A stretch of DNA of 23,696 nt, taken from NCBI GenBank assembly GCA_900617975.1, contig UZAE01013226.1, forward strand, positions 1-23,696. The letters are read 5' to 3'. Shown here piece by piece: positions 134-22,631 of the stretch. The DNA is from Rodentolepis nana (Eukaryota > Platyhelminthes > Cestoda > Cyclophyllidea > Hymenolepididae). The stretch's first letter is position 1; each line of letters begins with the position of its first letter. Under the pieces are notes generated by a model. It did no database searches, was not told where the DNA came from, and saw nothing but the letters and a program-made list of their open reading frames with translations. The translations under genes and the position numbers were made by a program.

Positions 134-205
134 ATGGTGCGCAATAGACTCACCTCCATGTGGTGCACCCTGGACAACGTATCTAAGTACGGCAAAAATG
201 TCTAT
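134..205 (+). ncRNA. HDV-like self-cleaving ribozyme, copy A (partly degraded)
   Basis: A 72-nt nested double pseudoknot at the 5' end of the retrotransposon. P1 is 134-140 with 165-171, with one mismatch at 135/170 because the first two bases are AT rather than GG. P2 is ATAGAC 144-149 with GTCTAT 200-205. P3 is ACC 152-154 with GGT 162-164, closing loop TCCATGT. P4 is 178-182 with 187-191. The strand after P1 reads GGACAAC (GGGCAAC in the other copies), and the presumed catalytic cytosine is C193 in the GGCAAAAA joining strand. Known HDV-like ribozymes at LINE 5' ends cleave just before the first P1 base. The P1 damage probably weakens this copy. Confidence 0.85.
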
Positions 206-303
206 CACTCGGCATTCGAATTGAATTCGATTTATTATGATTAGCTTGAAAAAAAGACTATAAGAGAAATCGCGATCGTCAGGGCGAATTACAACGTCTT
301 CAG

Positions 304-1199
304 ATCCTCCAGTGGAATGGTGGAGGGATGTCACAAAACAAAAAGGTCCAAGTCAAAAAATCCTACATATCTCTGACGTAGACATATTCACAATTATGGA
401 AGCAAAAATTTCGGATGAAAAACTGAAGTACTACCGATTTCCAGGTTACACCCTGTACCTTCTACCTAAATACCGGCATGTTGCAAGTGGAATTCTAACT
501 GGAGTAAAAGAAGGCCTCACCTCACACTACGATCTAATCAAGTGTATGGGCTCGACACAAGACATATGTGAAATAATCAGATTAAGTGTTTGGAAATGTC
601 AAAACCACTTCAAGATATATGCAGTCTATAATCCACCCCAGAATTGTCCCAACTTTGATTTTCTGAACATCTCACACAAAACTATAGTATTAGGAGACTT
701 CAACGCCCATTCCACCATATGGGGCTACAAGGATACAAACATAGCTGGAAAGGAAATTAAAGACATGCTAAACGGCAACCCCCTGGAACTTATTTACAGC
801 AATGAGGATTCGGCTACATATTTGCACTACAATGGAACCAGAACAACTCCTGACTTACTCCTGGCTTCAAGCGACATCAGCGAACATACACGCCGAAAAA
901 TAATTGACGATCCTGGTTCTGGTCACAAACCAGTCATTGCTAGTATTACCTTCGGCAGCAAAAGCATGTTAAAGAAAGTGCCAACTAAGCTATCATGGAA
1001 CTTCAAGAAGGCTGACTGGTCTAGATTCACTAACCCTTTAGATAATGAACTTCACACAAGTCCCCTAAACCTTAACCAACTCCTGACCAACTTTACAATG
1101 ATATCACGAATATTATGGTCAGATGTGCAAATAAAACTATTTCTAAAGGCAAGACTAAGCACTATCGAGTATTTTGGTCTAGACACCTTGAGAAACTGA
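304..1199 (+). pseudogene. Retrotransposon endonuclease (APE type), copy A, frameshifted
   Basis: This domain nicks target DNA for target-primed reverse transcription. The N-terminal motif ILQWNGGG, whose Asn is part of the active site, is read from 304. A one-base deletion relative to copy C near 352 shifts the frame, and the rest is open in the other frame to a stop at 1199. Visible motifs are IMEA (catalytic Glu), VLGDFNAH at about 687-710, TPDLLLASSDI, and GSGHKPV at about 914-934 (the SDH-type His motif, here GSGH). The first in-frame ATG is at 328, after the WN motif, so the natural start is unclear. The frame starting with GTG at 312 is only an artefact of the frameshift. After 1199 the original frame continues through a helical linker with a nonsense TAG at about 1276. 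Confidence 0.88.
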
Positions 1200-1800
1200 A
1201 AAGAAAACGGGACGCCCTTCGCAACACTGCTGATCAGACTGGAAGAACGGAAGACGTACAAGCCTGGAGACGGTAGTCAGCTGTCCTAAGGCAAACCATC
1301 TTACAAGTCAAACGGACTTCCTTCGACAAGTTTATCTCAAATATCAACTATCAAAATGATAGCCAACGCACTTTCAATTTTCTGAGAAACCTGCAAAACA
1401 ACAGAGAAAGACCCAAGAAGGAACCAATCACTTTCAAATTCCTGGGTAACCTCCAAAACAACGGGGAAAGACCCAAGAAAGAACCAATACGCTTTAAAAC
1501 ACACAAAAAAGAACCAATACGCTTAAACAGCAAATTGCTTACCTAACGAAATAGCTAACTGCTTTGCGAGGTTCTATTCCCATAACAAATACGTTTAAAA
1601 AACAAACTGCTTACCACCGACTCCGAATTTAAACAGCAAATTGCTTACCACCGACACCGAAATAGCTAACTGTCAGAAAATCTTCAAGAGATTTAAAGAT
1701 ACAAGTAAGACAGGTTGGGGAAATTAAGGAAGACGCAACACCAAATGATGTGGGGAAATTAAGGAAGACATAATAACACCAAATAATGTACTTATTGAAC
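1200..1800 (+). pseudogene. Retrotransposon linker region with nested duplications, copy A
   Basis: Between endonuclease and reverse transcriptase the reading frame can be followed as a basic, probably helical linker (residues such as KHYRVFWSRHLEKLKRKRD, from about 1156). From about 1375 to 1660 the same short blocks recur two to four times: the 'ggaaagacccaagaaagaaccaa' type block, the 'aaattgcttaccaccgac' type block and the 'gaaatagctaactg' block. Copy C carries each of these once over 19375-19510, so copy A has expanded by local duplication. The region is not translatable as it stands. Confidence 0.75.
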
Positions 1801-1809
1801 CATTCAGAA

Positions 1810-3060
1810 CTTGAGAACTTAATGCTGCGATAAAACGGCTAAAGTGCAAGAAGTCTTCTGGCCAAGACGGTATTCATCCGGAATTTCTAATGAGAATGGG
1901 ACCAACAGCCAAGGAAACCATGCTGACGCTTTTCAACAAAATCTAGGAGACCAGTCTCGTACCTAACCAACGGAAAGTTGCCATAGTAATACCAGTACTA
2001 AAAAAAGGCCAAAGACCCTAGCAACTTTGACAACTATAGGCCTATCTCTCTCACAAGCGTGCTGGCTAAACTTAATGAAAGAATAGTTAACAGGAGGCTG
2101 ACCTGGTTCCTTGAGACCAACAGTGTTTTTTAGGAGTGAACAAGCAGGTTTTTGGCCACAAAGATCAACGAACCAACAAGTAGCCACTTTCTCCCAACAC
2201 ATCAAAGATGCCCTTAATGCAAGAAATACCCTTACGGCGGTTTTCGTCGATTTCAAATCAGCATATGACTTAGTAAGGAAAGAGAAGCTAATTCTAAAAT
2301 TGGCAAAGATTGGTATTAAGCATAATATGCTAAACTGGATATATGCATTCATTGGACAAAGATCATGTAATGTCAGATACGGAAATGCTCTATCAAAATC
2401 CTTAAAGTCAGATACGGAAATGCTCTATCAAAATCCAATCCTTTACAAACAGGCCTTCTTACAAACAGGCCTTCCACAGGGAGCTGTCACAAGCTGCATA
2501 CAGGCCTTCCACAGGGAGCTGTCACAAGCTGCACTCTTTTAATGTCTTCATCAATGCAGTCACGGGCATCAAGTGCTTACTTTGTGCAGACGATCATGTT
2601 CTATGGTATTCCGCCCCTAAGAAAAACGCTCAGGAGAGCTATGGTATTCCGCCCCTAAGAAAAACGCTCAGGAGAGGACCGAAAGTACCCTTAATGTTGC
2701 ACTTAAACTACTAGCAAACTGGTAATCAACACCGCGAAAACTGCATTCCAAACTTTTTCTTTAGACCATCACAGCATAAACCCGCATTTAAGGCACAAGG
2801 ATACTACCATAGAAAAAACCAATGAGTTCACATTTCTCGGAATGACGTTTGACACTAAGCTAACGTGGAAAAGTTACATCAATAAAATTGAAGAACGAGT
2901 CTCCAATAGACTGAATGTACTGAAGCGTCTTGCTGGTAACGTATGGGGCTGTGCACGCTCAACTCTCAACAACACTTACAAGATGTTTATTCAGCCAATA
3001 ATATTGTATTTCTGTGAGCCACTCATTACAGCCACAGAGGTGACTCTCAAACCACTCGAA
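1810..3060 (+). pseudogene. Retrotransposon reverse transcriptase, copy A, disrupted
   Basis: The polymerase that copies element RNA into the nicked target. Finger motifs can be read at about 1830-2100 across stops (KSSGQDGIHPEFL, NFDNYRPISLTSVLAKL). EQAGFWPQRST follows at about 2140. Motif A, VFVDFKSAYD, is at about 2240-2269. Motif B, TGLPQGAVTS, at about 2460-2490 lies in a region duplicated several times (2395-2540). Motif C reads CADD at 2583-2594 instead of YADD; copy C keeps YADD. The thumb starts in an open frame at 2842 (MTFDTKLTWKSYINKIEE) that continues into the RNase H region. Between 2395 and 2680 short segments are repeated in tandem and destroy the frame. The result is a non-functional relic. 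Confidence 0.9.
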
Positions 3061-4260
3061 AAGGCACACAACCAAGCATTACGACTAATTACTGGAGGGA
3101 TAAAATCAACACTCATTGATGCAATGTTCCTAGTTACAGGAAACACCACAATATGTTCCCTTATGAAAGAAAAGGCCTTGTTCCTGTATGAGAAGCTACT
3201 GCGCATTCCCGTGGACAAATTCTTCAGCACCTATGAGAATAGACCAAGGCATCTGAAAACGCAATCTGGTCTAATACAAAAAGCCAGAGAATTGGAGAAA
3301 GAATTACAAATCGATGACAAACCAAAAAGCCTCTCTCTCCCCATGAACCCATTGGCAGACACTGATGTTGTGTTTTGCACCCAACTGCTCGACTTCTTCA
3401 GGAATTCAAACACTCCTCCAGAGCAAATGCGCTCACTGGCCCTTGAGACAATCAATGTCAACTACCCTGTAGATCAATGGCTCCAAGTCTTTATAGAAAG
3501 CCAAACAAACATTGGTGCAGGTGTCTTTTCAGAACTCTTCTCTTTCTACGCAGCATCAGGACTCACTAGCTCCGCTTTTGAAGGAGAAATAGAGGCCATT
3601 AGGAAAGCACTATGCCAATTATGTTGCCTGGATACGAAATTCACCAAAGCGGTGATACTTTCTGACCCACAGTCACCAATAAACTCAATTGGACTTTCGA
3701 ACTCACAGTCAGCAATAAACTCAATTGGAAGTAGATTTCGAACTTACAGTCAGCAATAGACTCTATTGGAAGCAGAGATACTCACAGGCAACAATAAACT
3801 CAATTGGAAACAGAGAGCGTGATACTTTCGGACTCACAGTCAGCAATAAACTAATGTGGAAACAGAGATAAACAGCTGAGATATACGAATGTAAAAAACT
3901 CTATCAGCTACTGAGAGAGAATGAGATAAAGGAATGTAGAAAACTCTATGAGCTGCTGAGACGAAAAACAAAACAGTGGAAAACGCTATGAGCTGCTGGG
4001 AGAGAAAAACAAAACAGTGGTTCTATCTATGAACAGCTGAGATAAACGAATGTAGAAACCTCTATCAGCTGTTGATGAGATAAAGGAATGTAGAAAACTC
4101 TATCAGCTGCAGAAAACAGCTGAGATAAGGAATGTAGAAAACTCTATGAGCTGCTGAGACGAAAAACAAAACAGTGGTCCTACAATGGATTCCTGGTCAC
4201 TGTGGCATTAAAGGCAATGAGATTGCTGACACACTTGCTAAGAAGGGGACAACGGTTTTG
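3061..4260 (+). pseudogene. Retrotransposon connection and RNase H domain, copy A
   Basis: The open frame from 2842 runs to 3759 and ends in the first half of an RNase H domain: VFIESQTNIGAGVF at about 3490-3530 where a TDGS-type first-Asp motif would be expected (apparently lost), then GEIEAIRKAL at about 3580-3610 (catalytic Glu), and VILSDPQS at about 3650-3670 (catalytic Asp). The centre, 3655-4170, is expanded into diverged repeats of two blocks ('actcacagtcagcaataaactcaattgga' type and 'ggaatgtagaaaactctatgagctgctgag' type). The domain end resumes at 4174 with LQWIPGHCGIKGNEIADTLA, carrying the conserved His and last Asp. This RNase H is of the kind found in I, Jockey-related and ingi elements. 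Confidence 0.85.
3655..4170 (+). repeat. Diverged nested tandem repeats inside RNase H, copy A
   Basis: About 0.5 kb of imperfect direct repeats made from two adjacent segments of the RNase H coding sequence. The 5' part repeats a block containing 'cacagtcagcaataaactcaattgga' about five times. The 3' part repeats 'agctgagataa(a)cgaatgtagaaaactctatgagctgctgagacgaaaaacaaaacagtgg' in whole or part about five times. Unit ends differ, so this is not one clean tandem array but successive partial duplications, each with its own point mutations. Confidence 0.85.
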
Positions 4261-4623
4261 CAATGCATATACTGGCCGATGTCTTTCCACGCAATGAAGT
4301 CCTTAATCAGGAGAGAATTTCAGACCTCAAGGTGCAATGTACTTAAAGCACGAACAAAGGAGAAACAGTGGTCAGTGACACTCTCCGACATAGCTGACTG
4401 GTCAAGAATCGAAGATGTTGCTGAGTTTAGACTACGTACCGGACACGATTGCTTGACAAAACACCTACACAGATTGGGAGTGTACACTCAACTCACATGC
4501 CCCCTATGTAACCTACAGGAGGAAATGGAGAAGACCAACCTGATTCGGTGTCCAGCCCTAAAGACAAGGATGGAAAGCCAGAGATACTGGGAAGCAAGAA
4601 GACTGCTAATGAACTGCTATTAA
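4261..4623 (+). pseudogene. Retrotransposon C-terminal Cys-rich domain, copy A
   Basis: Continuous with the frame open from 4174. It reads DWSRIEDVAEFRLRTGHD at about 4400-4450, then KHLHRLGVY, then the block TCPLCNLQEEMEKTNLIRCP, ending in a stop at 4621-4623. This C-terminal region follows RNase H in many arthropod-type I/Jockey-superfamily proteins (family knowledge from memory, not a search). The usual CxxC...H...C arrangement has Asn in place of His in both copies of the element in this window. Confidence 0.85.
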
Positions 4624-4641
4624 TTAACTGCTATAAATGTA

Positions 4642-4728
4642 CCCCCCACCCTTGGGGGAAGCTGAAGTCAAAGTTTAAGGGCTAATGATAAATATCACAA
4701 AGCCTGCCATTAAAATAATAATAATAAT
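4642..4728 (+). promoter_or_regulatory. Retrotransposon 3' end: hairpins and AAT tail, copy A
   Basis: A C5/G5 hairpin is visible (4643-4647 with 4654-4658). It is followed by a two-part hairpin, GGGC 4679-4682 with GCCT 4702-4705 enclosing TGATA/TATCA (4686-4690 with 4693-4697), and then a short AAT-repeat tail. The second hairpin block also ends the other three elements in the window, so it is the likely recognition site for the element's reverse transcriptase (inference from how LINE/SINE pairs share 3' ends). Confidence 0.6.
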
Positions 4729-5770
4729 TTCGATTTTCTTCAAGAACCGATTAATCTCAAACTATCCCCAATCAAGTGATCTGAATTATAGAGATTTGCC
4801 ATTCCTGAATCGACCGTGTTCTGCAATCCTCTCAATTGTCTTTTAATTTGTCAATGTCATTTTACCCCTTCATGCATTTTACATTTTAGATTTGGTCAAT
4901 TAACAGTGACTAGTATTATTTAAAAATTATTGTTGCACAACTTTGTTAATTCAGTCGAAGACCCATATTGTCTACCTCTTTAAAATCATCTGATGTGTAT
5001 CCACAGAGGACTTTGGATATTCAATCAAATGCTGCATACCTGCCCATTAGCTTTCAAAAGTAGACGCTTCAGTTAGATTATAACATCCACGCATTTCCTC
5101 TGAACTACAAGAAATGCAAGCATTCAAATTTACATCACAACTTGATTATCTTTTTATGTCAATCTCTCTCTACTTGGCGGTTCGCCTTCCTTTCTCATCA
5201 ACACCCGTTTCTCCTAACTTGATCCATGCCGAAACTTGAAAGGTGTTAGAAGAATTGATACTCAGTTAGACACTATCTACCTGTATATAATGGGACATGA
5301 AACTACTACTCGCATTCGACAGCTATTCGGTCTTTGGCACATGGACTGCAATGAGCATTAGTCATCATTGGAATAATATTCCACTTGGAAGGGGCCTTTG
5401 AGACCAAGTTTGTGAAAGATCGGTCATCTGCAATAATATTTTTACAGTTGATGACACTTTAAATTCTCTTAGTTCAGCAATTCAACAACCGAGAAATCAG
5501 TAAAAGTTCGGCCAACTGACGCCTTTTCTAATTCACCCTTTGCATTCCTACTCACGTCATTACGGGAGACCAATTCTGTGTGTACAAGATCACCAAAATG
5601 CAAGTGTACGCGAATTATTCTATAAAGCCAAAAGTTGTTAGTAGATGGTGATTTGAACATTGCTCACATAAAGTCCAATCAAATTTTTCGTGGATCTGTT
5701 GAGGAGTAATCAGCGTTATTTCACAGAAGTGGTTGAGTAGTGTATCATTTTAAACTAGTGTCTATTTTAG
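4729..5770. other. Non-coding stretch between retrotransposon A and the eIF1-like gene
   Basis: AT-rich sequence without a credible gene. A TATA-like string (TGTATATAA, about 5282-5290) lies some 490 bases upstream of the eIF1-like ATG, too far for a confident promoter call. A short minus-strand frame at 5469-5660 has no recognisable motif. The stretch ends with the 3' splice-like sequence TCTATTTTAG at 5761-5770. Confidence 0.5.
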
Positions 5771-5775
5771 GAAGG

Positions 5776-6141
5776 ATGAAAGAAGATTCAAACTTCAGAT
5801 TCGATAGTAAGTATTTGACGACTTTGAGTGATTTTCCTTCTGCAGATGGCCATGTTGGTGACACAATTGAAGAGCCGGATGATGGGTTGGTTCATATCAG
5901 AATCCACTCGCTGGCGATTCACAAACTGGTAACAACTGTGTCTGGACTTCCTGAGAAATATCACCTTGGAAGCATTCTCAAGTGCTGCATGAGGACATTC
6001 GGTTGCAAAGGTGGGATTAAGCAGAATAACGAATTCAGTGAAGTGATGCTATTACAGGGTGACACTCGAAGTCAAGTATACGAATTCCTTACTAAGAACA
6101 GTCTAGTCCCTCCAGAGTGTATTCGAGTGCATGGAAGCTGA
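5776..6141 (+). CDS. Diverged eIF1 (SUI1-domain) protein
   Basis: A homologue of translation initiation factor eIF1, which binds the 40S subunit near the P site and monitors start-codon choice. Coding exons are 5776-5806 and 5846-6141, about 108 residues after splicing, close to eIF1's usual 113 or so. The SUI1 signature is clear: GLVHIRIH, TTVSGLPEKYHLGSILK, TFGCKGGI, SEVMLLQGDTRSQVYEFL and a terminal VHGS. The basic loop that in eIF1 reads QRNGRKTLTTVQG is replaced by HSLAIHKLVTTVSG, so key rRNA-contacting Asn/Arg residues are missing. ATG 5776 is the first ATG and lies 5 nt after the acceptor-like TCTATTTTAG, suggesting a 5' leader intron or trans-splicing. It is probably a paralogue of the housekeeping gene. 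The 39-nt intron keeps frame, so an unspliced reading is also possible. Confidence 0.82.
   Translation: MKEDSNFRFDSKYLTTLSDFPSADGHVGDTIEEPDDGLVHIRIHSLAIHKLVTTVSGLPEKYHLGSILKCCMRTFGCKGGIKQNNEFSEVMLLQGDTRSQVYEFLTKNSLVPPECIRVHGS
5807..5845 (+). other. 39-nt intron of the eIF1-like gene
   Basis: Donor GTAAGT at 5807 and acceptor CCTTCTGCAG ending at 5845 are both close to consensus. The length is a multiple of three and contains no in-frame stop, so the frame stays open if it is retained. Splicing gives FRFDNGHVGD, nearer to the length and layout of eIF1 N-termini than the unspliced product. Confidence 0.7.
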
Positions 6142-14437: not shown

Positions 14438-14452
14438 AATATTTATGCCTTC
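14438..14452 (+). repeat. Target-site duplication, left copy (short element B)
   Basis: AATATTTATGCCTTC, repeated exactly at 14729-14743. The duplication ends at the base before the ribozyme begins. Confidence 0.92.
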
Positions 14453-14524
14453 GGGGTGCGTGATAGACTTACCTCCACGTGGTGCACCCTGGGCAACGTA
14501 TACTCATACGGCAAAAAAGTCTAT
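14453..14524 (+). ncRNA. HDV-like self-cleaving ribozyme, copy B (best preserved)
   Basis: All elements of the HDV fold can be paired. P1 is GGGGTGC 14453-14459 with GCACCCT 14484-14490 (7 pairs, one wobble). P2 is ATAGAC 14463-14468 with GTCTAT 14519-14524. P3 is ACC 14471-14473 with GGT 14481-14483. P1.1 can form between CC in loop TCCACGT and GG at 14491-14492. P4 is CGTAT 14497-14501 with ATACG 14506-14510. The candidate active-site base is C14512 in GGCAAAAAA. The strand GGGCAAC after P1 is the same as in HDV itself. Predicted cleavage is between 14452 and 14453, exactly the edge of the target-site duplication. Confidence 0.92.
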
Positions 14525-14680
14525 TAACTGGCGATTGACTTCTGGCGCAGTACTTATCCTACCTTTTCTCTGCCTTCATGTCTGTCTCTTTACATCTTTA
14601 AATTACTCTTCTGTTTCCCACCCCTCGATTTTCTGTTACTTTGATGTTCCTCCCCCCTGTGAAGTCCGAAGTCAGCTAAA

Positions 14681-14728
14681 GGGCTAATGATAAATATCAA
14701 AACGCCTGCCATTTGAAATAAATAAATA
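14681..14728 (+). promoter_or_regulatory. Shared 3' hairpin and AAAT tail (element B)
   Basis: GGGC 14681-14684 can pair with GCCT 14704-14707 around a TGATA/TATCA stem, as at the 3' end of the large element. The tail contains overlapping AATAAA strings and ends at the target-site duplication. Confidence 0.65.
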
Positions 14729-14743
14729 AATATTTATGCCTTC
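14729..14743 (+). repeat. Target-site duplication, right copy (short element B)
   Basis: AATATTTATGCCTTC, identical to 14438-14452. Confidence 0.92.
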
Positions 14744-17910: not shown

Positions 17911-17982
17911 GGGGTGCGCGATAGACATACCTCCACGTGGTGCACCCTGGGCAACGTATCTTCGCACGGCAAAAAAGTCTAT
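17911..17982 (+). ncRNA. HDV-like self-cleaving ribozyme, copy C
   Basis: P1 is GGGGTGC 17911-17917 with GCACCCT 17942-17948. P2 is ATAGAC 17921-17926 with GTCTAT 17977-17982. P3 is ACC 17929-17931 with GGT 17939-17941 and loop TCCACGT. The joining strand after P1 is GGGCAAC. P4 is CGTAT 17955-17959 with GCACG 17964-17968, with one A/C mismatch and a G-T wobble. Candidate active-site base: C17970. Same 72-nt length as copies A and B. The predicted cleavage site at 17910/17911 marks the element's 5' end. Confidence 0.9.
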
Positions 17983-18045
17983 CACTCGGCATTCAATTTG
18001 ACTTCGATTTATTATGATTAGCTTGAAACAAGGCTATAAGAGAAA

Positions 18046-18063
18046 TCGCCCTCGTCAGGGCGA
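18046..18063 (+). promoter_or_regulatory. Leader hairpin between ribozyme and ORF, copy C
   Basis: TCGCCCT 18046-18052 pairs with AGGGCGA 18057-18063 around a CGTC loop. In copy A the equivalent stem (270-276 with 281-287) has two mismatches. It sits about 17 nt before the endonuclease motif, in a leader with no in-frame AUG, so a role in translation is conceivable but unproven. Confidence 0.5.
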
Positions 18064-18079
18064 ATCATAACGTCTTCAG

Positions 18080-18373
18080 ATCCTCCAGTGGAATGGTGGA
18101 GGGATGTCACAGGACAAAAAGGTCCAAGTTCAGAAAATCCTAAAAATCTTTCATGTAGACATATTCACAATTATGGAAGCAAACATTTCGGATGAAAAAC
18201 TGAAGTACTACCGATTCCCAGGTTACACCCTGTACCTTCTATCTAAATACCGGCAAGTTGCAAGTGGAATTCTAACTAGAGTAAAAGAAGGTCTTACATT
18301 ACATTACGATCTAAACAAGAGTATGGGCTCGACACAGAATATATGTGAAATAATCAGATTAAGTGTTTGGTAA
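18080..18373 (+). pseudogene. Retrotransposon endonuclease N-terminal part, copy C
   Basis: ILQWNGGGMSQDKKVQVQKI is read in one frame from 18080, showing that the WN motif precedes the first ATG (18104). The frame continues through IMEANISDEKLKYYRFPGYT to a TAA at 18371-18373, where copy A has GGA AAT. An in-frame TAA at 18068-18070 means only 11 codons separate a stop from the first ATG. Confidence 0.85.
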
Positions 18374-18660
18374 TGTCAAAACCACTTCAAGATATATGCA
18401 GTCTATAATCCATTGTCAAAACCACTTCAAGGTATATGCAGTCTATAATCCAAAACACAAGACATATGTGAAATAATCAGATTAAATGTTTGGAAATATC
18501 AAAACCCTTCAAGATATATGCAGTCTATAATCCTCCCCAGAATTGTCGAAATGCAGTCTATAATCCACCCCAGAATTGTCCAAAATTTGACATAAATATT
18601 TAGAAATGTCAAAACCACTTCAAGATATATGCAATATAATCCACCCCAGAATTGTCCCAA
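18371..18660 (+). repeat. Nested partial duplications inside endonuclease, copy C
   Basis: The block 'tcaaaaccacttcaagatatatgcagtctataatcca' occurs four to five times in whole or part, with one copy also carrying the upstream segment 'acatatgtgaaataatcag'. Copy A has this sequence once (598-640). Each unit has private substitutions, so the duplications are not recent identical copies. Confidence 0.85.
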
Positions 18661-19126
18661 CTTTGATTTTCTGAGCATCTCACACAAAACGGTAGTATTA
18701 GGAGACTTCAACGCTCGTTTCACCAGATGGGGCTACAAGGATACAAATATAGCTGGAAAGGAAATTGAAGACATGCTAAACAGCAACCCTCTGGAACTTA
18801 TTTACAGCAATGAGGATTCGGCTACATATTTGCACTACAATGGAACCAGAACAACTCCTGACTTAATCCTGGCTTCAAGCTATATCAGCGAACATACACG
18901 CCGAGAAATAATTGACGATCCTGGTTCTGGTCACAAAGCAGTCATTGCTAGTATTACCATCGGCAGCAAAAGCATGACAATAAAAAACCCAACCAAGCTA
19001 TCGTGGAACTTCAAGAAGGCTGACTGGTCTAGATTCAATAACCTTTTAGACAATGAACTTCACACTAGCCCCTCAACTTCAACCAACATCCTGACAAACT
19101 TTGCATTGATACCACGAATATTATGA
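18629..19126 (+). pseudogene. Retrotransposon endonuclease C-terminal part, copy C
   Basis: The frame resumes in YNPPQNCPNFDFL and carries VVLGDFNARFTRWGYKD, TPDLILASSYI and GSGHKAVIASI. These are the Asp-Asn and terminal His motifs of APE-type endonucleases. It ends at a stop at 19124-19126, where copy A reads TGG. The linker follows to about 19620. Confidence 0.85.
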
Positions 19127-19637
19127 TCAGATGTGCAAAGAAAACTATTTCCCGAGACAAGACTAAACATTATCGAGTGTTTTGGTCTAAACACCTTGAG
19201 GAACTGAAAAGAAAACGGGACGCCCTTCGCAACACTGCTGATCAGACTGGATGAACGGAAGACGTACAAGCCTGAAGACGACAATCAGCTGTCCTAAGGC
19301 AAACCATCTTACAAGCTAAACGGACTTTCTACGACAAGTTTATCTCAAATATCAACTTACAAAGTGATAGACAACGCACTTTCAAATTCCTGGGTAACCT
19401 CTAAAACAACAAGGAAAGACCCAAGAAAGAACCAATACCATTAAACAACAAACTGCTTACCACCGACTCCGAAATAGCTAACTGCTTTGCGAGGTTCTAT
19501 TCCCACAAGCAAAAGAAAAACCCTTTTGTCAGAAAATCTTCAAGAGATTTAAAGATACAAGTAAGACAGTTGGGTGAAATTAAGGAAGACATAGCAATAC
19601 TAAATAACGTACTTACTGAAGAATTCAGAACTTGAGA

Positions 19638-19638
19638 N
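19638..19638. other. Undetermined base at a join lacking about 440 bp
   Basis: A single n occurs where the sequence jumps from the equivalent of copy A position about 1815 to about 2253, cutting into RT motif A. This may mark an unresolved assembly join rather than a true deletion. Confidence 0.8.
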
Positions 19639-19639
19639 A

Positions 19640-20375
19640 TCAGCCAATGACTTAGTATGGAAAGAGAAGCTAATTCTAAAATTGGCAAAGATTGGTATTA
19701 AGCATAACATGCTAAACTGGATAAAAGCATTCATTGGACAAAGATCGCGTAATGTCAGATATGGAAATGCTCTATCAAAATCCAATCTTTTACACACAGG
19801 CCTACCACAGGGAGCTGTCACAAGCTGCACTCTTTTCAATGTCTTCATCAATGACATAGCTGAATTAGTACAGACAGTCACGGGCATCAAGTGCTTACTT
19901 TATGCAGATGATCATGCTCTATGGTATTCCGCCCCTAAGACAAACGCTCAGGTGAGGACAGAAAGTGATCTTAATTGTGCACTTAAACTACTAGCAAACT
20001 TAAACTACTAGCAAACTGGTGCGACAACAATGGAATGATAATCAACACCGCGAAAACTGCATTCCAAACTTTTTCTTTTGGCCAGTCACAGCATAAACCC
20101 ATTTCTAAGGTACAAGGACACTACCCTAGAAAAAACCAATGAGATCATTTAACTCGGAATGACGTTTGACACAAAGCTAACGTGGAAAAGTCTCGTAGTT
20201 AAAATAGCAGAATCAATCTCCAAGAGACTGAATATATTGAAGCGTCTTGGTGGTAGCGTATGGGGCTGTGCACGCTCAACTCTCCACACCACTTACAAGA
20301 TGTTTATTCAGTCAATAATGTTTTATTGCTGTGAGGCACTCATTACAGCCACAAAGGTGACTCGCAAACTACACA
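19640..20375 (+). pseudogene. Retrotransposon reverse transcriptase core and thumb, copy C
   Basis: The frame contains ANDLVWKEKLILKLAKIGIK, then motif B in TGLPQGAVTSCTLFNVFIND (about 19795-19855) and motif C as LLYADDHALW with an intact YADD at 19901-19912. It ends at 20011 after a short duplication of 'cttaaactactagcaaact' (19981-20018). The thumb is open from 20159 (MTFDTKLTWKS) to about 20370, where it runs into the 1.2-kb deletion. Motif A is truncated at the 19638 join. Confidence 0.88.
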
Positions 20376-20711
20376 CACACAATGAAGGCCTTAATCAGGA
20401 GAGAATTCTAAACCTCAAGGTGCAACGAACTTAAAGCTCGAACAAAGGAGAAACCGTGGACAGTGGCACTCTCCGTCATACCCGACTGGCCAAGAATCGA
20501 AGCCGTTGCTGAGTTTAGACTACGTACCGGACACGATTGCTTGCCAAAACACCTTCACAGATTGGGAGTATACACTCAACCTACATGCCCCCTATGTAAC
20601 CTACAGGAGGAAATGGAGAAGACCAACCTGATTCGGTGTCCAGCCCTAAAGACAACGATGGAAAACCAGAGATACTGGGAAGCAAGAAGACTGCTAATGA
20701 ACTGTTATTAA
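20376..20711 (+). pseudogene. Retrotransposon C-terminal Cys-rich domain, copy C
   Basis: After the deletion the sequence resumes in the segment corresponding to copy A from about 4290. The open part 20463-20711 reads DWPRIEAVAEFRLRTGHD, KHLHRLGVYTQPTCPLC and EKTNLIRCPAL, ending in a stop at 20709-20711. The Asn in the CxxC...N...C arrangement is shared with copy A. Confidence 0.85.
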
Positions 20712-20766
20712 TTAACTGATATAAATGTACCCCCCACCCTTGGGGGAAGCTGAAGCCAAAGTTTAA

Positions 20767-20809
20767 GGGCTAATGATAAATATCATAAAACCTGCCATTT
20801 GAAATAAAT
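20767..20809 (+). promoter_or_regulatory. Shared 3' hairpin block, copy C
   Basis: GGGCTAATGATAAATATCA followed by ACCTGCCATTT and an AAATAAAT tail. The outer stem has lost one pair (ACCT instead of GCCT). A C-run/G-run hairpin lies just upstream at about 20730-20748, as in copy A. Confidence 0.6.
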
Positions 20810-22411
20810 CAATATTTATTAGAATTCAATCAAGTGCAAGTATTCGTTGAATGAAAATAATGTAGTTTTCATGGTCATTTATGAGGAAAATTCAGATTCA
20901 ATACTGGGGGGATTTTATGACGAGTGATAATTTAATTGCCATTTATTAATTCAATTTAAAATTAATATCAATTGCTCCTTTAGGCAGACATGAGGTAACT
21001 TATATAATTTGCATAAATTTCGATATTTGCAGGACTTATATTTCAACAAAATTGAACCGCATAAATCAGGATTCTGATTCTATTGAGTGGCATTTCTTCT
21101 TAAAACCCGAGTAGTAAATGAGCTCATTTTATTACCAAAATCTTCCTAATTTGGGATATTTGGAACAGTTAATGTTATGATCATTAAATTTAGAATCAGA
21201 CTTAATGCCGTTTTTATAAATAACTTTAAAAATCGTCTTTGCATTGATATATGTTGCGAGTATCTTTGCAACGGGTTTTTGATTTGCTCTTTAGAGAGGT
21301 CAGATAAACAATGCACATTAACTCCGCGATGTTTACTAACCTACGGTGAACTTTTGATATACTCATCTTTAAAACCCTCTTTAGCTGCCTGCTGCTCTGT
21401 CAAAGTTAGCATTCGTTCATTTTGGTTTGGAGTCCTTTGATTCGCTAATTTGCGCCTAAATTGTTGTTCAACTCGGTACTTTCAAATTTTGTTGAACGAT
21501 CCTCTCTTGTTTTTGCACCGTAGTCGAGACACAATTGGTATCGTTCTCTCTCCTTAAGTGGTCAAGATAGGAAAAAAAGATTGACAACACAATTTCACTA
21601 TCTACCACGCCTTTTCTAGGTAATTGCTTCTTTTGCATTTCTTTACTAAGGGCTAAATGGAAGTATCCACAATAACACTGAAATCTTGACTTGTTCATTT
21701 CGTAGACCAGTTCGGTGGTTTTAGAAATTTTACTAGCTTTTGCCATCTTCTGCTTCCATTTGGAATGTGAGCTATCAAAATGATCCCATTTAAATACAGT
21801 TTAAATAGTCTCATATCGATTAGATCTTTAAGGGCATTCGGTACTTTTCAATAATGCTGCAAGATCCAGATTTTTGAAAAGGAGTGGGAAACTTTGAACC
21901 AATGAATTAAGAATTCTAATTCAGTCGTTATTCACTTCAGATTATAGTGGTGATTAGTAATATCAGATCGTGCAACCTTCAGAAGCTAATCAACGTTACC
22001 CCGAAGCTATATTGACGTTGCATTAACGCCCTCATTTTAATTATTTAAATCCTACGCAGATTGAGGTACTTGAGTTAACCGCTGAGTATCACATTGTGGC
22101 GTAGGCGAAATCTCTTCAATAGTTAAAAGTGCTCTTTTAATTCTATAAACATTCGCAATCATATGACAGCCATGCATTACAGTGCTCTTATTAGATTGGC
22201 ATTAAAATGCGTTTTCGTGATCGGTGTAATTTTTGCCAATCATGTTTTGAGTTAAATGCATAGAGGAGAGCGATCTTCTATGTCACCACTAAATCAATCG
22301 CCATGAAAAGGTTTGGGCTTGTCATACGAGTTGCTGGGGTTGTAACTACTACGACTCTTGTCGCATATCCATTGGCTTAAAAAAATACTTGCTAATCACA
22401 CTAAAAGTATA
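20810..22411. other. Non-coding stretch downstream of retrotransposon copy C
   Basis: AT-rich with no gene I can support. A plus-strand frame (21177-21440) and a minus-strand frame (21746-21468, starting MAKASKISKTTELVYEM) have no domain I recognise and no convincing splice partners; the latter could be part of an unrecognised gene. Confidence 0.4.
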
Positions 22412-22432
22412 CTTTATGTGGTCCATAAAATA
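22412..22432 (+). repeat. Target-site duplication, left copy (short element D)
   Basis: A 21-bp string beginning CTTTATGTGGTCC, repeated at 22611-22631 with a single difference (G to A at the seventh base). Confidence 0.85.
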
Positions 22433-22610
22433 CATCATCACCTTTTTTCTAAATTTTCAACCTTCGTATTTGAAACACTCTTTAGTTCCCCTCCTCTTGA
22501 CTTTTTTTCACTTTGATGTTTCTTCCCCTCTGTGAAGCCTGAAGTCAACTAAAGGGCTAAAGATAACCATCAAACCGCCTGCCATTTTATATAATTTAAT
22601 AAATATTATT
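22433..22610 (+). mobile_element. Short non-autonomous retroelement, 5'-truncated (element D)
   Basis: A 178-bp insertion flanked by a 21-bp near-perfect duplication. Its body aligns with the pyrimidine-rich body of element B ('ctttgatgttcctcccc', 'tgtgaag..tgaagtca'), and it ends in the same 3' block (GGGC 22554-22557, GCCT 22577-22580, then GCCATTTTA). The ribozyme is missing, as expected for a 5'-truncated LINE-driven insertion. The diverged 3' hairpin (AGATAACCATCA) suggests an older insertion than B. Confidence 0.82.
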
Positions 22611-22631
22611 CTTTATATGGTCCATAAAATA
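22611..22631 (+). repeat. Target-site duplication, right copy (short element D)
   Basis: Matches 22412-22432 at 20 of 21 positions. Confidence 0.85.

Follow-up and report, generated by a model that had tools for sequence, protein, structure and literature searches.

HDV-like ribozymes were reportedly described in animal genomes and retrotransposons by Webb et al. in 2009 and Ruminski et al. in 2011, and animal retrozymes are of the hammerhead type. The closest described counterparts of the element analyzed here, a short repeat of the cyclophyllidean dwarf tapeworm Rodentolepis nana referred to as element B, include elements that carry such ribozymes at their 5' ends. In the available text of PMC4035085, the short NARTc/RIME elements and the LINEs L1Tc/ingi have in common a 77-nt 5' end that is an HDV-like ribozyme (Pr77), with cleavage reported in trypanosomes just upstream of the ribozyme. 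That text describes NARTc/RIME as truncated LINE versions and Pr77 as a promoter as well, whereas element B lies in a tapeworm host and has a body that matches neither of the two LINE copies beside it. The R2 SIDEs and the R2/R1 hybrid SIDE of Drosophila likewise join a 5' ribozyme to the 3' end of an autonomous element, and the accessible part of PMC3414825 describes R2 SIDEs as cut from a co-transcript, rare and inserted in rDNA; in contrast, the element B family is dispersed, far above its LINE in number, and flanked by duplications with a median of 14 nt. R2 retrotransposons resemble element B in carrying an HDV-like ribozyme at the element's 5' junction but are autonomous and site specific, and in many R2s the cut falls outside the element, as far as 36 nt upstream (PMC3774820, portion available), which differs from the edge of the element B family. 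Among flatworms, the SMalpha-type elements of Schistosoma are SINE-like repeats with a self-cleaving ribozyme, although that ribozyme is a hammerhead and so of a different class (PMC8490949, available excerpt). Animal retrozymes are non-coding, ribozyme-bearing and likened to SINEs, yet are reported as expressed circular RNAs (PMC7761336, accessible text). SINEs account for 0.9% of the repeats of Echinococcus canadensis in the available part of PMC5327563.

The design of a ribozyme joined to a LINE 3' end is already on record for NARTc/RIME and R2 SIDEs, as far as the available portions of those reports go. What is new within the literature searched is that the host is a tapeworm, that the copies are dispersed and numerous in an animal genome, that the body is unmatched by two LINE copies, and that a predicted cut site is read at genome scale; no report of HDV-like ribozymes in tapeworms was found in that literature, with most subscription papers outside its reach. 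In our judgement, element B is very likely a SINE-like copy moved by a LINE, with a 5' end produced when the predicted ribozyme cleaves a longer read-through transcript.

Element B and its family

Element B lies in a 23,696-nt stretch of R. nana DNA (contig UZAE01013226.1), all of which was analyzed and is called the window. An earlier note, made from the letters of the window, had delimited a 276-bp element between copies of a perfect 15-bp duplication, and its coordinates hold. The parts of the element are as follows.

14438 to 14452, + strand: left target-site duplication AATATTTATGCCTTC, a 15-nt exact match ending at offset 0
14453 to 14728, + strand: element B, 276 bp, between perfect 15-bp duplications
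14453 to 14524, + strand: HDV-like ribozyme (RF02682), bases 1-72 of element B, with predicted cleavage between 14452 and 14453
14525 to 14643, + strand: body of element B, with no match to LINE A or C, tRNA or another Rfam family, and with TTTT runs
14644 to 14728, + strand: LINE-like 3' block with AAATAAATAAATA tail, from BLAST to LINE A and LINE C
14729 to 14743, + strand: right target-site duplication, second copy of AATATTTATGCCTTC, read from the sequence

The body gives no sign of coding: frames started by ATG in element B reach at most 11 codons on the + strand and 40 on the - strand, and one + frame is open over 77 codons without an ATG.

Copies were counted in an assembly of 107,105,815 bases in 4,701 contigs, which may be incomplete and in which the window is contig C3400. 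With up to 3 mismatches allowed, the junction of SINE ribozyme and body has 18,734 matches, and the 28-nt ribozyme core has 4,127 exact ones; the reversed control gave 0 in both cases. The 3' block common to SINE and LINE, with 1 mismatch tolerated, yields 12,407 matches against 10 for its control. Since 13 of the 100 junction matches listed, all perfect and from the first contigs, are by eye extra members of tandem clusters, SINE loci are fewer than 18,734, perhaps 16,000 by a rough estimate. When up to 2 mismatches are allowed, the LINE 5' junction is found 688 times (control 7), a figure that overstates LINE 5' ends because 12 of 20 fetched junctions are compound and one array junction recurs at 87 places (72 in + and 15 in - orientation relative to the contigs). 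A stretch near the LINE 3' ORF end gives 1,210 matches at up to 3 mismatches (control 0), some of them in short tandem clusters. The short element far outnumbers the LINE despite the differing stringency of these short patterns, as the earlier note had expected, and element B has thousands of family matches in the assembly rather than standing alone.

Two samples of the family were drawn. The core set began with 128 ribozyme cores (up to 3 mismatches) in 98 loci, from which 30 rows in arrays or beside another core, 13 without a 3' block within 400 nt and 4 near an edge were dropped, leaving 81; being picked by exact core or BLAST to element B, it is biased to intact ribozymes. The 3'-block set is free of ribozyme bias but requires an exact 16-nt block. 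Alignment of the 40 loci fetched by this block reveals a ribozyme at the 5' end of 37, with homology starting in the first 5 bases. Merging the 81 core copies with these 37 gives 118, of which 113 are unique and 112 were scored.

Most copies in the 3'-block sample are old and decayed, and element B is a member of a younger subfamily. In BLAST, 39 other near-full-length copies are 94-99% identical to element B (40 scored among 4,292 candidates). The subfamily is short, measuring 240 nt to a point that lies 247-447 nt into the 3'-block-sample copies (37/37 longer); some 45-55 nt present in two longer copies are absent from element B, and the family body varies in length. The start GGGGTGC that had been proposed for full-length copies is that of element B's subfamily, whereas most other copies begin GGGGTGT (position 7: T.73, C.23).

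The predicted ribozyme and the search for a SINE head

The Rfam covariance model RF02682 scores element B at 49.3 bits (gathering 44, E 1.6e-6), and RF00094 reaches 40.5 bits, under its gathering score of 50. The predicted structure is laid out as follows.

14453 to 14459, + strand: P1 5' strand GGGGTGC, pairing with GCACCCT at 14484-14490, first pair G.U (Rfam alignment, centroid fold)
14463 to 14468, + strand: P2 5' strand ATAGAC, predicted to pair with GTCTAT at 14519-14524 (read from the sequence)
14471 to 14483, + strand: P3 with loop L3, P3 being 14471-14473/14481-14483 (Rfam alignment)
14497 to 14510, + strand: P4 hairpin, 14497-14501/14506-14510 (Rfam alignment, fold)
14512, + strand: C60 of element B, the cytosine predicted to be catalytic from where it falls in the Rfam alignment

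By analogy with HDV, we take 14475-14476 / 14491-14492 to be P1.1, and C60 is presumably the counterpart of HDV C75, with its catalytic role. Across 114 distinct ribozyme rows, C60 is a C in 107; the two P1.1 pairs are standard in 95.6% and 98.2%, most rows being core-picked and so biased for P1.1, and J1/4 and most of L3 are well conserved in these same largely core-picked rows. In the 3'-block sample, which is not ribozyme-picked, pairwise identity is 0.861 for the ribozyme against 0.752 for the body, the ribozyme is the better conserved in 36 of 37 copies, upstream flank identity is 0.28-0.34, and all seven P1 pairs are present in 21 of the 37. Rfam reaches E<=0.01 in 19 of the 40 loci sampled by the 3' block and the gathering score in 2; the corresponding counts for 20 LINE-junction loci are 16 and 1. 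The exact ribozyme core has 0 matches among viral sequences and 0 among bacterial/archaeal ones in the collections searched.

Among the marks of an HDV-like ribozyme, the match to a curated covariance model and the conservation of P1.1 and the catalytic C are thus present, and compensatory changes are not. No helix pair among the 114 distinct rows beats all 300 shuffles in covariation, the best pair being reached by 14 of the 300, and covariation has little power in this family because its copies descend from few masters. In P2, four of the six pairs are present in just 63-71% of rows, which may reflect misalignment of A runs, and the single-strand fold is no stabler than shuffles (z 0.34) under a model that leaves out pseudoknots. 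The predicted fold draws its support from the Rfam match together with the conserved bases.

An ordinary SINE would share with element B its length, copy number, LINE-type 3' end and target-site duplications, and a Pol III head might merely resemble a ribozyme. However, ARAGORN detects no tRNA in 20 loci, Rfam scans contain no tRNA, 5S or 7SL match, and no Rfam family besides the HDV one appears at E<=0.01 in 40 loci. A B-box-like site is found in 1 of 37 copies, and 35 of the 37 contain TTTT (27 contain TTTTT), runs that would stop Pol III. A Pol III head is therefore unlikely, and with an Rfam ribozyme above gathering in element B we consider a chance resemblance to be extremely improbable. 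In the strict sense, which calls for a Pol III head from tRNA, 5S or 7SL, element B is not a SINE; in the wide sense of SINE or SINE-like it is one, being short, non-coding, abundant, flanked by target-site duplications and provided with a LINE 3' end.

LINEs of the window, short derivatives and arrays

Two LINEs lie in the window.

134 to 4735, + strand: LINE A, member of the candidate mobilising family, with separate open frames for its EN, RT and RNase H pieces; 3' limit approximate
134 to 205, + strand: ribozyme match of LINE A, 46.3 bits (Rfam)
17911 to 20822, + strand: LINE C, shorter than LINE A, with a GGGG start at 17911; 3' limit approximate
17913 to 17982, + strand: ribozyme match of LINE C, 37.8 bits, below gathering

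BLAST aligns element B to LINE C at 91.7% over bases 1-72 and 92% over 227-276, and to LINE A at 87.3% over bases 3-72 and 79.8% over 192-269, such that what it has in common with both is 72 nt at the start and the last 50-85 nt only. The 5' homology stops at the last P2 base, and the common 5' part is thus the ribozyme alone. For bases 73-191, BLAST against LINE A and LINE C yields nothing better than E 3, so a wholly LINE-derived element B is not established. The earlier description of a retroelement that has kept only the two functional ends of the LINE is therefore apt for the ribozyme and the 3' end, which are common to the LINE, but not for a body that matches neither LINE copy. That wording suggests internal deletion, and judging from the alignments a chimeric origin of element B may be just as possible.

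Element B resembles a SIDE in joining a ribozyme 5' end to a LINE 3' end, and differs in that bases 73-191 do not match LINE A or C, where a SIDE would be LINE-derived throughout. A short LINE derivative at locus L118, in which the ribozyme and ~40 nt from the LINE 5' region are joined to the LINE 3' end, appears to be a SIDE in both respects; a near-perfect duplication (15/16 nt, by eye) abuts its ribozyme, and its structure points to loss of the middle as the way in which short forms of this kind originate here.

LINE A contains a PF14529 endonuclease domain. Its open frame at window 2707-3759 is 100% identical to an R. nana protein over 92% of its length, with numerous further proteins of R. 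nana and of Hymenolepis microstoma among the matches of this frame. The closest named relatives of the LINE frame outside tapeworms are spider and psyllid proteins at 30-43% identity, which raise horizontal transfer as a question. LINE copies start at the ribozyme base too, the eight non-compound junction loci comprising six with GGGG, one with GGAG and one without. No target-site duplications were found for LINE A or LINE C, the LINE on contig C125 has just a weak 8-nt candidate by eye, and the stretch fetched for the LINE on contig C380 did not reveal its 3' end.

Head-to-tail duplications riddle the LINE copies of the window (1369-4639 and 18374-20727), mostly of 30-41 nt and 14-60 nt overall, with several 97-100% identical, and all 17 TRF rows of the window fall inside the two LINEs. 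Spacings of ~39 nt also occur in contigs C84, C120, C318 and C853. Either misassembly of repeats or a genuine duplication process could account for these duplications. Between the LINEs, an open frame with a SUI1 domain (PF01253) at window 5737-6141 is probably a host translation-factor gene.

Ribozyme cores themselves form tandem arrays with ~40- and ~82-nt periods (L029, L044, L058, L102, L107, L109-L113, L115 and L117). Such arrays would fit a retrozyme-like element spread by circular RNA from ribozymes in tandem copies, and animal non-LTR retrozymes are called a possible kind of SINE in the available text of PMC7761336. Typical copies, however, have a single ribozyme at the edge with abutting duplications, and Rfam scans of the window, 40 SINE loci and the LINE-junction loci contain no hammerhead, the ribozyme by which a retrozyme was to be recognized. 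The P1 5' strand, which a cut would require, is moreover missing (1 mismatch allowed) from 25 of the 26 cores that have another core within 190 nt upstream, compared with 11 of the 101 other cores, and is kept in the remaining 1 and 90, respectively; the one in-array exception is L047. Spread by circular RNA is thus, in our view, very improbable. Loss of P1 from inner array units would be suggestive of selection against internal cuts, though we do not count it for cleavage because the arrays are interrelated and tandem duplications also run through LINE copies.

The left edge and a proposed route of mobilization

The central observation of the earlier note, that the last duplicated base (14452) adjoins the first ribozyme base (14453), is borne out by Rfam, which independently places the ribozyme at 14453-14524, and this agreement of insertion boundary and folding boundary extends beyond element B to tens of independent insertions. 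Across 113 copies, G stands at +1 in.87 and at +2 in.88, with.88-.93 from +2 to +4, and position -1 is A.24, C.19, G.19 and T.39. Duplications were sought at a score of at least 10 with an end within 6 nt either side of the ribozyme start, using flanks swapped between copies as control. They are found in 66 of 112 copies versus 5 of 335 shuffled, with a median length of 14, and 42 end exactly before G1; by source, they are present in 15/36 copies of the 3'-block set and 51/76 of the core set. Perfect duplications that measure 12 nt or more and contain a G or C number 48; 34 end exactly before G1 and 14 miss it by 1-3 nt (offsets to 6 searched). In BLAST to element B, 34 of 39 non-self near-full-length matches start no more than 1 nt from G1 (40 scored of 4,292 candidates), and the five close relatives that start elsewhere do so 3-10 nt into the duplication of element B (four) or 5 nt inside the element (one). 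Of 55 duplications, 84% begin with A, and their first bases are rich in A and T, the pattern expected of an APE-type endonuclease; LINE A carries a domain of that type (PF14529).

The 46 of 112 copies without a clear duplication were searched farther upstream, where no exact match reached 12 nt (the longest was 10, against 11 among shuffles) within up to 220 nt of flank, 86 of the 113 copies having less (median 176). Within the flank examined, then, no 5' extension inside a duplication is seen, that is, none of the longer 5' sequence that would have spoken against the proposed boundary. The three remaining loci of the 3'-block sample (L129, L145 and L149) have a different sequence at the 5' end, and two of the three show candidate duplications (15 and 9 nt). 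In L129 and L145, a SINE 3' half is joined to unrelated 5' sequence within a candidate duplication, the kind of product expected from template jumps. The window itself holds one further copy.

22433 to 22610, + strand: second SINE copy, 5'-truncated and without ribozyme, with its 3' block at 22547 and duplication TGGTCCATAAAATA at 22419-22432 / 22618-22631

Because family copies start at the first base of the predicted ribozyme, their left edge was likely set by RNA self-cutting. The same DNA edge would arise if the ribozyme stretch were a DNA-level promoter from which RNA starts at G1, with cleavage secondary or absent, since an edge cannot tell a +1 start from a cut. Cap-derived additions might enrich G at -1, and G is found there in only.19 of copies. 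The Rfam match and the conserved catalytic bases need no promoter explanation, and a bare promoter role leaves unexplained why homology to the LINEs ends at the last P2 base. Precedent for a promoter comes from Pr77 of L1Tc and NARTc, reported as both internal promoter and HDV-like ribozyme in the part of PMC4035085 available. Taken together, we regard a promoter start as unlikely.

Self-cutting by the predicted ribozyme may be placed in a route of four steps. A copy would first be transcribed from outside, within a host transcript, whereupon the ribozyme would fold and cut just before G1 to leave a defined 5' end, two steps suggested by the edge and the fold. The LINE reverse transcriptase would then recognize the common 3' block, as the presence of that block suggests, and copy the RNA at a nicked A/T-rich target. 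Target-primed synthesis would usually reach the RNA 5' end, as the edge and the duplications suggest, and new copies would consequently be mostly full length, with the ribozyme again at the edge. In this way the ribozyme would take the place that a promoter-bearing head has in an ordinary SINE.

Every dispersed insertion independently records where an RNA 5' end lay, and thousands of natural cut-site read-outs per genome may therefore be possible, each of which would sit next to random upstream sequence. We put forward only tentatively, and with some doubt, that a promoterless ribozyme-headed SINE has flooded the tapeworm genome, excised from any host transcript and leaving thousands of self-cleaving cassettes that sever host pre-mRNAs in which they lie in sense orientation. 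With this family one could test directly whether co-transcription and self-cleavage alone are enough to sustain a promoterless non-LTR element, and what effect thousands of self-cleaving sites would have on host transcripts.
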